This document shows, piece by piece, positions 24,869-29,309 of a DNA stretch of 64,000 bases (position 1 is its first letter; the number at the start of each line of letters is the position of its first letter). A model generated the notes under the pieces. That model worked only from the letters and a program-made list of their open reading frames with translations, was not told the origin of the DNA and did not search any database. The position numbers were made by a program, and so were the translations under genes. The stretch comes from Bacteroidota bacterium (lineage in GTDB: Bacteria; Bacteroidota; Bacteroidia; SXHM01): assembly GCA_947478465.1 (NCBI GenBank), contig CANJWH010000002.1:1-64000 (forward strand), in the 5' to 3' direction.

Positions 24869-26569
24869 TTATTCAACAACCGTCATCCGGATACTCTGCG
24901 TTCCCTGCGAAGTATTCAGACGGGCAAGATAAATTCCCTGTGCTAAGTTCAACTCCTTTGACGAAAACTCAAAGCGATGCTGTCCTGGACCAAACTGCGC
25001 ATTGGCAAGTGTGGAGATTTTTTCGCCAGCCATGTTGAATACGTCTAACTGAATTCTGTCAGATGCAGGAAGAGTGACATAAATCTGAGTACTTTCTCTG
25101 AATGGATTTGGGAAACTGATGAAAGAAACGGGATTTGTATGTTCATTAACTGAAGAGGCGGTATCAGGAAGCGCTTCTTGTGTATACTGAACATAAAACA
25201 ACATCATTTCATCCTGAGTAGTGTTGCCCCAAAAGAGTGTATCATCTGTAAAATTCTGGTAAGTGGCCTCAAGGATTATACCTGTTTGAATAGAAACTTC
25301 ATACAGCGGATCAAAGATGCGGACTGCAGGGTGTTCCCAATCATAAAAGCCTTGATTAAATGAATAATCACGGTTGTAAAACCCTTCATAAAACTGTTCG
25401 CCCTTTTCACCATTTGCAGTGCTTTTGTAAAGATCAAAATCTTTTCCGCGTGCATGTGTATGGCCTTGCAGCGACCAGATGTGCCATGTAGGAGCCTGAG
25501 GATAAAAAGGGAAACCAAAACGGTAAGTAAATGTATGGTCAAGCCCATCATTAGGAATTATTAAATCCTGACCAAAAGAACCGGTTCCTAAAATAAACTC
25601 AACTGCATTGATAGGAATTAAGACTGAAAACATTTCAATCTTATTTGTATCAGGCATAGCAGTATAAACATTTGTATAGGCTTCTGCTGCAATAATTGAA
25701 TCCGTGTCATAGTTTACAATGTGGTAATTCATATCCAGAACACCATCACCTTTCCAGCGGAAAGCAGTATTTGAAGGCAGGTCATAAGAAAAAGCATCCT
25801 GCCAGGTGGCAACCATTTGGTTTACACCAAGTGAACTTCCTTCAGGGTCATTTATATTTCTTAATCCGGCAGGGTAGTCTGCATCAGTGCTCTGATCAAA
25901 TTTATAGATGATGAAGTGGTGTGATTCATCATTAAACCAGGTTTCAAGTTTTCCAACATCAACACTGTCGGCAAATAAGGAGATGTCTTGTTTTTTAAAA
26001 TACTCAACCTCTTGTTGCGGAGCAAGAAAGAATGGTCCCATGCGCAACTGAAAACCTTCTCCTTCGGCAGGTGCAGGTGGTGTTGCCTGACGAGGTTTAC
26101 CATTTACATGGTAGTAATTATATAAAAGTTGAGGGTCAACTGCTTGTCCGGTTTCCTTTGCACCGAAAAGTATCCATTGGCGTATAAGTTCTACTTCTTC
26201 CAGCTGAAGTTGTTGCCCGTAAACTGAAGGCATTTGATTGCCTTCATCCATACCAAGCGGATAATAAGTATCCCACGCATCATAAGAACATTTGCGGAGC
26301 AGGAAACTTTTCTCAGGATGCCCCGGATAAATGCGTTTGTAGCCTTTTGCTAAAGCTTCGGCATTTGCAGGAGCTGCATTTACAAGGTTGGCATAAACAA
26401 CAGATGCATCGCCTCCGCCATACAAATCAAGACTGTCGGGATTGCCGGCTGTGTTGTGGCACGAAGTAGTACAATTTGTCTGAAAAAGTGAATACACCTG
26501 TTGATAGGTGTCTTGTGCTGTTGCGTTTAAACTGATAAGCGCAATGGCGCCAACTACTAACTTTTTCAT
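24869..26569 (-). CDS. Secreted haem c / dicopper (PHM-like) monooxygenase-type protein with T9SS tail, paralogue 2
   Basis: 566 residues. Signal peptide MKKLVVGAIALISLNATAQ; haem c site CTTSCH (33-38) with candidate axial Met in GNQMP (M113). The middle matches the two-copper fold of peptidylglycine/dopamine monooxygenases: ESHHFIIYKF (H217/H218), MNYHIVNY (H283), QGHTHARGKDFDLY (H370/H372) and DEMMLFYVQY (M455). All ligands expected for CuH (three His) and CuM (two His, one Met) are present. The C-terminal type A sorting domain begins near SFPNPFRE. Starts 7 bases after its paralogue ends: one operon. Substrate unknown; copper-dependent hydroxylation fed by the haem is an inference. Confidence 0.85.
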   Translation of the reverse strand: MKKLVVGAIALISLNATAQDTYQQVYSLFQTNCTTSCHNTAGNPDSLDLYGGGDASVVYANLVNAAPANAEALAKGYKRIYPGHPEKSFLLRKCSYDAWDTYYPLGMDEGNQMPSVYGQQLQLEEVELIRQWILFGAKETGQAVDPQLLYNYYHVNGKPRQATPPAPAEGEGFQLRMGPFFLAPQQEVEYFKKQDISLFADSVDVGKLETWFNDESHHFIIYKFDQSTDADYPAGLRNINDPEGSSLGVNQMVATWQDAFSYDLPSNTAFRWKGDGVLDMNYHIVNYDTDSIIAAEAYTNVYTAMPDTNKIEMFSVLIPINAVEFILGTGSFGQDLIIPNDGLDHTFTYRFGFPFYPQAPTWHIWSLQGHTHARGKDFDLYKSTANGEKGEQFYEGFYNRDYSFNQGFYDWEHPAVRIFDPLYEVSIQTGIILEATYQNFTDDTLFWGNTTQDEMMLFYVQYTQEALPDTASSVNEHTNPVSFISFPNPFRESTQIYVTLPASDRIQLDVFNMAGEKISTLANAQFGPGQHRFEFSSKELNLAQGIYLARLNTSQGTQSIRMTVVE

Positions 26570-26576
26570 AAGAGTA

Positions 26577-28235
26577 TTAATCTATTTTTACAATTTGTTT
26601 AGAAACACTTTCTCCATTAACACTCAGGCGAACATAATAGGTTCCGCTTGTCCAGCCCGGAGCATTGGTGTTAATCTGGGCGAATTTTTTTCCGGGAGTT
26701 TCAGTTTTGTTCATAAGGTTGGCAACCAGTTTCCCGCTGATGTCATAAATATCAATTGCCACAGTTGATGACTCTTTCAGTTCGTAAGAGAAGTTAAGAA
26801 CATCACTAACCGGATTTGGATAAGCAGAAATGGTTGAAGCAGCAGTAATTGCCTCGTTAATGCCGATAGGCTCGCTTACGGTGTATTGCATGAAAATAAG
26901 CATCATTTCATCTGCAGTGGTTAAACCGAAAGTGATAACAAATGCCTGCTCGTCAGGATTACTGATTTTGTATTTTGCTTCATGAATAATTCCTTTTGAA
27001 GCCTCAATGGTTTCCATCGGATCAAAATATCTGTCAGCCGGGTGCTGCCAATCATAATAGCCCTGATTGAATGTGTAGTCTCTATTGTAATTTCCGTCAT
27101 AAATAATATCGCCTTTGCTACCGTTTGCATTGCGTTTATAGATGTTGTAGGATGTTCCGTATTTATGGGTGTGAGTTGAAAGAAACCAGATATTCCAGTT
27201 GTCGGGATTACCAGCTTCAAACTTTGAACCTGTAAAAGTTTGCTCGTTTCCGTTGTTTATAATAATTAATGCAGGAGGATTGTAAATTACCAGTTCTGAT
27301 TTCATTTCTTTATCAGCAGTTCCAGAAGGCTGTGTGTAGATGTTAGAGTATGCCTCTGCAGCAAGAATCGAGTCCTGAGAGTAATTAATGGTGTGGTAAT
27401 TTAAATCAAGATAGGCATCCTGATTTAGGAAATAGGCGGTACCATCGGGTAAATCAGTTGTGTCGGTGTCAACCCAGCCTACCAGGTATTTGGTTTGGTC
27501 AGGAAAAACATTTGAAACATCAACCTGACGCAGCCCTTCTGCAAGCTGGTTTTGTCCACCCGGAACAAAGCCAAACAGCAGGAAATGGTGTGAATCATCA
27601 TTAATGTTGCAGGTAAGCTTATTTACTTCAAAAGCATCAGCATTAAAAATCCCTTCTTTCTTATAAAACTCAATTTCTTCTCCCGGATTAAGAAAAATAG
27701 GTCCAATGTGTACCTGAAAGCCTTCGCCTGTTGCAGGTGCAGGAGGAACGGGTATTCTTGGTCTTCCGTTTACGTGGTAATAATTATAAAGTGTTTGTGT
27801 GCTTACCACTTGCCCTGTTTGTGGTGCGCCATACATAATCCATTGGCGGATTAATTCAATTTCTTCTTTTTCCATTGAAGGTTGATTCTTAGGCATGCTG
27901 TTTTCTTCGGTGACATCTAATGAGTAGGCAGCATCCCAGTCTGCAGATGCGCATTTGCGGAGCAGAAAACTTCTTTCGGGGTAGCCGGGCATGATTACTT
28001 TTTGGCCTTTTGCCAGAGCTGCAGCGTTTATGGGGTCAACATTAATCAGGTTGTTGTAAACCGTTGCTGCGCTTCCGCCTCCATATAAGTCAAGACTATC
28101 AGCATTGCCGGCTGTATTATGGCAGGAGGCGGTGCAGTTTGTTTGTAAGAGATTGTAAACGCGCTGGTAGGTTGATTGTGCCGATGCGCTTAAAGCAGAA
28201 AATGCAAGCGCTGTTAAAATGTAAAAATGCTTCAT
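26577..28235 (-). CDS. Secreted haem c / dicopper (PHM-like) monooxygenase-type protein with T9SS tail, paralogue 1
   Basis: 552 residues, same architecture as the downstream gene. Signal peptide (MKHFYILTALAFSALSASAQ), CTASCH haem c motif (34-39), axial Met candidate ENSMP (M114). Copper ligands: DDSHHFLLFGF (H216/H217), LNYHTINY (H281), STHTHKYGTSYNIYK (H355/H357), DEMMLIFMQY (M444). The HHxLLFG, HTHxxG and DEMx patterns closely mirror rat PHM and dopamine beta-hydroxylase. The sorting domain starts near SAYPNPVSD and ends VSKQIVKID. First gene of the pair. Products should be exported by Sec, receive haem in the periplasm and reach the cell surface by T9SS. Function inferred from ligand conservation only. 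Confidence 0.85.
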   Translation of the reverse strand: MKHFYILTALAFSALSASAQSTYQRVYNLLQTNCTASCHNTAGNADSLDLYGGGSAATVYNNLINVDPINAAALAKGQKVIMPGYPERSFLLRKCASADWDAAYSLDVTEENSMPKNQPSMEKEEIELIRQWIMYGAPQTGQVVSTQTLYNYYHVNGRPRIPVPPAPATGEGFQVHIGPIFLNPGEEIEFYKKEGIFNADAFEVNKLTCNINDDSHHFLLFGFVPGGQNQLAEGLRQVDVSNVFPDQTKYLVGWVDTDTTDLPDGTAYFLNQDAYLDLNYHTINYSQDSILAAEAYSNIYTQPSGTADKEMKSELVIYNPPALIIINNGNEQTFTGSKFEAGNPDNWNIWFLSTHTHKYGTSYNIYKRNANGSKGDIIYDGNYNRDYTFNQGYYDWQHPADRYFDPMETIEASKGIIHEAKYKISNPDEQAFVITFGLTTADEMMLIFMQYTVSEPIGINEAITAASTISAYPNPVSDVLNFSYELKESSTVAIDIYDISGKLVANLMNKTETPGKKFAQINTNAPGWTSGTYYVRLSVNGESVSKQIVKID

Positions 28236-28473: not shown

Positions 28474-28878
28474 ATGAAAAAGGTATTATTTTTTATTCTT
28501 GCTTTTGTTGGCATGCAGGTTTATTATTCATGTTCATCGGGTGGAAAAGATGCGGGAGTTGCTACAGCCGAAATGAATATTACACTTGATGGAATGACCT
28601 GTGCCGAAGGTTGTGCTAAGACCATTGAAAAAACTGTTGGCGCAATACCGGGCGTTACTTACAGCAAAGTAAACTTTGACGAAAAGACAGCCACTTTTAA
28701 ATATGATGATACAAAGACAACTGAAAAAGATATTCTTGCCGCTATTGCCGCCCTTAACGAAGGACAATATAAAGTAAGCAATGTAGAAGTAAAAATCCAG
28801 AAGAATGCAACCGAAGGAGAAGAAGATACCGAAGTAGAAGCCATTGAAGAAGAATTAATGATAGATACTGCTGTTTAA
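28474..28878 (+). CDS. Heavy-metal-associated (HMA) domain lipoprotein
   Basis: 134 residues. Signal peptide with lipobox-like VYYSCSSGG (lipid Cys at 20). Residues about 34-105 are an HMA ferredoxin-like fold: MNITLDGMTCAEGCAKTIEK, VGAIPGVTYSKVNFDEKTAT, EKDILAAIAAL. The metal loop is C43-A-E-G-C47, i.e. CxxxC instead of the usual CxxC. The tail (about 108-134) is very acidic. A periplasm-facing copper or other soft-metal carrier is a reasonable inference, fitting the dicopper proteins encoded next to it on the other strand. Full length. Confidence 0.82.
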   Translation: MKKVLFFILAFVGMQVYYSCSSGGKDAGVATAEMNITLDGMTCAEGCAKTIEKTVGAIPGVTYSKVNFDEKTATFKYDDTKTTEKDILAAIAALNEGQYKVSNVEVKIQKNATEGEEDTEVEAIEEELMIDTAV

Positions 28879-28934: not shown

Positions 28935-29309
28935 ATGTTCAACATTAAAACCTATACCGTAATTCTGTTATCTGCATTTTTTATGAGTGCAATAACAGCA
29001 AAGCCGGCATTTTCACAAAATAATGGAGGAGACCAGTTTAAATTAACGGCTTTTCCAAATCCTTCGTCAAGTTCCATTACTATTAAATATGAGTTGCCTC
29101 AAAATACAGTTGTTAAGCTGATGATTTTTAGTGTTGACGGCAGCGTAGGCAAAGTTTTATTTGCAGGTAACCGTACAGCAGGTGAGTATTCTGAAACTTA
29201 TGATATTTCAACGCTTGCTCCGGGGCAATATTTTTATCAGTTGCAAACAGAAAGCGATTTGGTTACTAAACCTATCAGCATGTTAAGCGGGGCTGCGAAA
29301 CAGAATTAA
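28935..29309 (+). CDS. Mini-protein consisting of a signal peptide and a T9SS sorting-type domain
   Basis: 124 residues: a signal region (MFNIKTYTVILLSAFFMSAI to AFSQ), a five-residue linker, then a type A sorting-like domain (FKLTAFPNPSSSSITIKYEL, VVKLMIFSVDGSVGKVLFAG, STLAPGQYFYQLQTES). There is no cargo domain. The tail resembles that of the T9SS protein at 36457-37530. It follows the HMA lipoprotein gene by 56 bases on the same strand and ends at a bidirectional terminator. It could be a stand-alone surface protein or a remnant of a longer gene. Confidence 0.78.
   Translation: MFNIKTYTVILLSAFFMSAITAKPAFSQNNGGDQFKLTAFPNPSSSSITIKYELPQNTVVKLMIFSVDGSVGKVLFAGNRTAGEYSETYDISTLAPGQYFYQLQTESDLVTKPISMLSGAAKQN

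Follow-up and report, generated by a model that had tools for sequence, protein, structure and literature searches.

In animals, the two-copper domain of the PHM/DBH type makes peptide hormones and noradrenaline, with ascorbate (vitamin C) as the source of electrons, and the electron transfer between the two coppers is a step that has long been debated for both PHM and DBH. In PHM, the residues R240, N316, and Y318 anchor the carboxylate of the substrate. Cytochrome b561 is believed to regenerate the ascorbate that DBH uses in the chromaffin granules (PMC10691727), and a review of the metalloproteome lists PHM and DBM as copper proteins of eukaryotes only (PMC7435645). Both the fold and the type of cytochrome considered here are already known, and no description of their combination, i.e., a haem-PHM fusion, was found in the literature searched, with most subscription journals falling outside its scope.

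The window, that is, the whole stretch of DNA that was analyzed, comprises 64,000 nucleotides from the genome of a freshwater-type Bacteroidota bacterium (3.41 Mb in 131 contigs, about 91% complete), and contains a pair of tandem genes on the reverse strand, to which all the coordinates of the pair given below refer. The gene transcribed first (P0002, 26577-28235) encodes a protein of 552 aa and lies upstream of the second (P0001, 24869-26569), which encodes a protein of 566 aa, with an intergenic gap of 7 bp and 46% identity between the two products. Both proteins have the same domain order, in which a Sec signal and an N-terminal haem-c-like domain precede a PHM/DBH-type dicopper module, with a T9SS tail at the C-terminus. 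The 552-aa protein is 70-80% identical to its orthologues within the genus, where the tandem arrangement is maintained at five named loci, and the dN/dS values among the genus members (0.07-0.14) indicate purifying selection. Three further full-length paralogues, two of them in tandem, bring the total in this genome to five. One member of the genus, represented by a MAG, has an interrupted copy of the second gene (L074:9607-11301), which reflects either decay or an assembly error.

On balance, we favor the interpretation that the two proteins are surface, haem-fed, O2-dependent dicopper monooxygenases, belonging to an extracytoplasmic haem c-dicopper family of the Bacteroidota. The PHM/DBH-type dicopper fold and its ligand set are well supported by the sequence profiles and the predicted model. 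In the 552-aa protein, the module (26877-27758), located through the family profile against PHM (1opm), includes the CuH ligands H216-H217 (27585-27590) and H281 (27393-27395), together with the CuM ligands H355-T-H357 (27165-27173) and M444 (26904-26906). In the 566-aa protein, the module (25172-26056), recognized through the AlphaFold2 model and its Foldseek matches to 4zel and 1phm, includes H217-H218 (25916-25921) and H283 (25721-25723) for CuH, and H370-T-H372 (25454-25462) and M455 (25205-25207) for CuM. These are precisely the residues that an earlier sequence-only reading of this DNA had named as the copper ligands, and they follow the arrangement of PHM (1phm, 1opm), which shares the two-domain dicopper fold, the HH pair and single histidine of CuH, the HxH motif and methionine of CuM, and the DEM that surrounds this methionine.

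All six ligands are invariant in the 92 aligned relatives, rather than varying freely among the homologues, and are retained across the wider phylum, with N286, P265, and E454 being likewise invariant in the alignment, the first and last of these as second-shell residues. Given this invariance and the dN/dS values, the pattern of the ligands is not due to chance, an origin that was ruled out. The AlphaFold2 model, built with 62 alignment rows (pLDDT 90.7, pTM 0.77), retrieved human DBH as its best match in a Foldseek search of the PDB (E 3.2e-13), and ranks 1-31 were all PHM or DBH entries (E 3e-13 to 4e-9, probability 1.00), the next fold being weaker by about three orders of magnitude, so that the predicted structure is the PHM-related one that had been proposed. 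The profile comparisons lead to the same fold, given that the Pfam model Cu2_monoox_C, which reached 18.3 bits in the 566-aa protein (cut-off of 23) and had no match in the 552-aa protein, is matched by 18 of 27 family members, with several relatives exceeding the cut-off. In the other direction, a search of the PDB sequences with the family profile retrieved PHM (E 0.03), in an alignment that spans the entire module and has the six ligands in register.

The window proteins nevertheless differ from the animal enzymes in adding a fused haem-c domain and a T9SS tail to the PHM-type module. DBH (4zel), the best structural match, also has an N-terminal domain preceding the dicopper module, although this is a DOMON domain, for which no match was found in the window proteins, whereas theirs is cytochrome-like. 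In the register of the family profile with PHM, the equivalents of R240, N316, and Y318 are mostly Ser/Thr, Leu/Ile, and Phe/Tyr in 107 sequences. As this carboxylate anchor is not conserved, the substrate differs from that of PHM, and the identification of the proteins as peptide-amidating PHM was rejected.

The placement of the proteins at the cell surface is based on their C-terminal T9SS type A sorting tails (26589-26822 in the 552-aa protein and 24881-25114 in the 566-aa protein), which had been suggested from the sequence and were confirmed by the NCBIfam model TIGR04183, with 46.5 and 32.5 bits, respectively, for a cut-off of 23 bits. The Pfam model Por_Secre_tail scored 50 bits in the former (3.8e-13) and 25.5 in the latter, slightly below its 27-bit cut-off. 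In a tree of the dicopper part, 84 proteins form a clade apart from 23 others, which are mostly lipoprotein-like, and Por_Secre_tail is found in 61 of the 62 proteins of the larger group that were aligned.

The haem-c-like domain occupies approximately residues 21-145 of the 552-aa protein (27801-28175) and residues 20-145 of the 566-aa protein (26135-26512), and, judging from the sequence comparisons and modelling, it is likely that this domain carries haem. An N-terminal CxxCH with an MP axial candidate had been proposed for both proteins, and while the motif and the MP are indeed present, the spacing was incorrect, being CX3CH in both cases, as CTASCH in the 552-aa protein (residues 34-39, 28119-28136) and CTTSCH in the 566-aa protein (residues 33-38, 26456-26473). 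This is a non-canonical motif, which counts against the haem-fed interpretation; CX3CH and CX4CH are counted among the haem motifs (PMC10734462). The candidate distal ligands are Met114 (27894-27896), which is conserved and aligns with the "AMP" of cytochrome c6, and Met113 (26231-26233), in the first and second proteins, respectively.

The domain was recognized by profile and Pfam matches in both proteins, to Cytochrome_CBB3, PSCyt1, and cytochrome c6 in the 552-aa protein, which also has a match to the TIGR03806 region of NCBIfam (4.9e-9), with weak Foldseek matches in addition for the 566-aa protein. The model of the isolated domain (pLDDT 92) returned five Foldseek matches, all of them weak (best E 0.41) and all to c-type cytochromes (hydrazine synthase, c6A). 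As in the PSCyt1, cbb3-type subunit III, and TIGR03806 domains, a CXnCH lies near the N-terminus, and the MP is followed by a C-terminal helix, although the window family differs from these in being mostly below the curated cut-offs, in its variable spacing, and in its fusion with the dicopper module.

The earlier suggestion that the haem acts as a built-in electron donor fits the outcomes of the fold, profile, and co-conservation analyses, and this putative role is the core of the mechanism that we infer for catalysis, the direction of the electrons, and the substrate. Haem would be attached in the periplasm by the CcmBCEF system of the genome, copper would be loaded into both sites, and the T9SS would carry the folded protein to the cell surface. 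There, CuM would bind O2 and then hydroxylate an external substrate at a C-H bond, this substrate being other than a PHM-type C-terminal glycine carboxylate, while electrons would arrive one at a time via the haem to CuH, in place of the ascorbate of the animal enzymes.

The genes of CcmB, CcmC, CcmE, and CcmF are found together (L142:2607-7045), whereas neither CcmH nor ResB was found in this genome, of which the assembly is about 91% complete, and a system II cytochrome maturation was rejected given that no ResB was found. The CcmE has a CPSKY, a variant of the CXXXY type that has been documented in Desulfovibrio (PMC3884852). This CcmH-less cluster shares its genome with haem-dicopper proteins that use CX3CH and CX4CH, and it might be conjectured that a variant Ccm system accepts a loose spacing of the haem motif. 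Within the genome, the haem domain is confined to the five haem-dicopper proteins, and no outer-membrane conduit of the MtrB type was found. One possible donor to the surface haem is an extracellular reductant, while the lipoprotein forms of the family may have a periplasm-facing role, which is another possible answer to the question of the donor.

The lack of an evident donor to the surface haem, and of a conduit in the genome, also leads to the alternative that survives best, albeit as an unlikely one, in which the electrons flow in reverse, the dicopper site oxidizing a surface reductant, a metal ion, or a small nitrogen or sulfur compound, and the haem passing the electrons on. The proteins would then be oxidases or electron-transfer proteins rather than hydroxylases, as the unconserved peptide-carboxylate anchor would also allow, although the invariance of both full PHM-type sites, including the CuM methionine that is characteristic of an O2-activating center, argues for the monooxygenase.

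Somewhat less probable again is the use of H2O2 by the dicopper site, as a peroxygenase, a mode that is a matter of debate for the LPMOs, with the haem only priming the copper or scavenging peroxide. A surface site would have access to environmental H2O2 and has no known steady donor, but the two axial candidates, His and Met, are typical of electron transfer rather than of a peroxidase haem, and the haem is retained across very diverged members, both of which speak against this mode.

The conservation of the haem motif across the family bears on whether the domain binds haem at all. In the 92 aligned relatives, the first Cys is present in 92, the second in 91, and the His in 91, alongside the six invariant copper ligands, which is the co-conservation that the sequence-only reading had proposed as a check. 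The spacing is CX2 in 25 of these proteins, CX3 in 32, CX4 in 33, and CX6 in one, with at least 19 changes on the tree. The Met of the MP is found in 84 of the 92, while two of the remaining eight have a Cys at this site and six have a His within two residues, a pattern of replacement (six changes on the tree) that is expected of a distal haem ligand. A CXnCH domain devoid of haem, forming a disulfide or another metal site on a plain dicopper enzyme, might account for a spacing that ranges from 2 to 6, for the CX3CH of the window proteins, and for the Pfam cytochrome models falling below their cut-offs on them. It is, however, improbable, given that the His and the distal Met (or its Cys or His substitute) are conserved together, that ordinary CX2CH members are scattered throughout the tree, that Cytochrome_CBB3 matches 37 of 62 members and PSCyt1 25 of 62, and that the PDB profile matches are c-type cytochromes or cytochrome domains, including cytochrome c6.

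As for the neighboring genes, an HMA lipoprotein had been reported next to the pair, and this was borne out by a divergent gene on the forward strand (28474-28878, HMA 8.2e-14), which encodes a heavy-metal-binding lipoprotein, a possible copper partner of the pair. An HMA gene also lies near four relatives of a second bacterial family (L079, L080, L082, and L099), which weakly suggests that this neighbor supplies copper. Its metal motif is MTCAEGC, that is, CX3C and not CXXC. Outside the genus and one further family, a clustering of the neighbors of 67 loci revealed no functional partner that is conserved, the shared clusters being housekeeping genes around closely related loci, and no substrate-linked gene was found among the neighbors, the flanking genes being housekeeping ones. 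A non-catalytic copper- or haem-binding surface protein, such as a metal scavenger or adhesin on a PHM fold, would be in line with the five paralogues, the HMA neighbor, and the lack of a linked pathway, but is the least probable of the alternatives, as two distinct invariant sites with different ligands, plus N286 and E454, exceed the needs of storage.

The named relatives are Bacteroidota MAGs, with labels such as Chitinophagales, Flavobacteriales, Saprospiraceae, and Sphingobacteriales. Conservation in the broad alignment was too low throughout to scan the collection with it, and a narrower one was used. In the class, at least 42 of 295 genomes have a strong relative, with an E value below 1e-45, and at least eight more have weaker ones, numbers that are lower bounds because four candidates were scored per genome. 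In the survey of the phylum (393 genomes), based on a tail-free profile, a full-length member was found in 22 genomes, the haem domain alone in 18, and the dicopper and haem parts at separate loci, on different contigs, in one (G554). The plasmid matches were limited to T9SS-tail-like regions, the phage search returned no match, all the matches in a viral fold library were of low TM, and the PADLOC search returned nothing.

The other Cu2_monoox_C proteins of the phylum also have an N-terminal haem motif, in agreement with the survey of homologues that had been suggested. This second family, which includes four genes of the genome studied here, has an N-terminal CxxCH and an MP in all 15 proteins sampled (L067-L069, L174, L176-L178, L181-L184, and L190-L192) and a dicopper module, with a T9SS tail in L069 as well, and differs from the window family in its shorter haem region (the MP lies about 36 residues past the CxxCH), its uniform CX2CH (15 of 15), and its weak similarity to the profile of the window family. 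Taken with the window family, it makes haem plus dicopper the rule among the proteins sampled. At one of its loci in the genome studied here (L068:3427-6550), two tandem CxxCH-dicopper genes have a redoxin-like gene directly upstream.

The two halves can also be found apart. At L059 and L064, haem and dicopper are encoded by two neighboring genes instead of one, and a lipoprotein-type signal is present in each product. This adjacency, the separate loci in G554, and the motif in the whole sample of the second family argue for a functional link between haem and copper. On the other hand, the dicopper gene of L072 has no adjoining haem gene, and in the protein at L123:7860-9977 the motif has lost its second Cys and its His, while all the copper ligands and the T9SS tail are kept, which suggests that haem is not always needed. 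The same join is seen in nearly all the copper-domain relatives that were examined across the phylum, so that in these bacteria haem may take the place of the vitamin C of animals. More broadly, we tentatively propose that the Bacteroidota have a whole class of dicopper monooxygenases that are self-reducing and independent of ascorbate, their copper pair being fed by a c-type haem that is either fused or operon-paired, with many members displayed on the outer surface through the T9SS.

If this were the case, the PHM/DBH superfamily would as a rule be coupled to haem in the Bacteroidota, and not by way of exception. A haem that feeds the coppers would also act as an optical reporter within the same protein chain, with which both the electron delivery to CuH and the transfer between the two coppers could be timed. 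The same property would make these proteins surface enzymes of C-H oxidation in widespread aquatic bacteria, and possible biocatalysts with no need of ascorbate.

Finally, some small genes accompany these loci. In the window, a protein of 124 aa on the forward strand (28935-29309), with 79-90% identity across the genus, consists of little beyond a signal peptide and a T9SS tail, an odd case of a sorting tail with almost no cargo. A small secreted protein of about 205 aa, of which the L059 copy has no Pfam match, is encoded by the gene that immediately follows each separate dicopper gene (L059:2475-3101, L064:1530-2144, and L072:7859-8467), and the copies of L059 and L064, the third genes of their loci, each resemble that of L072.
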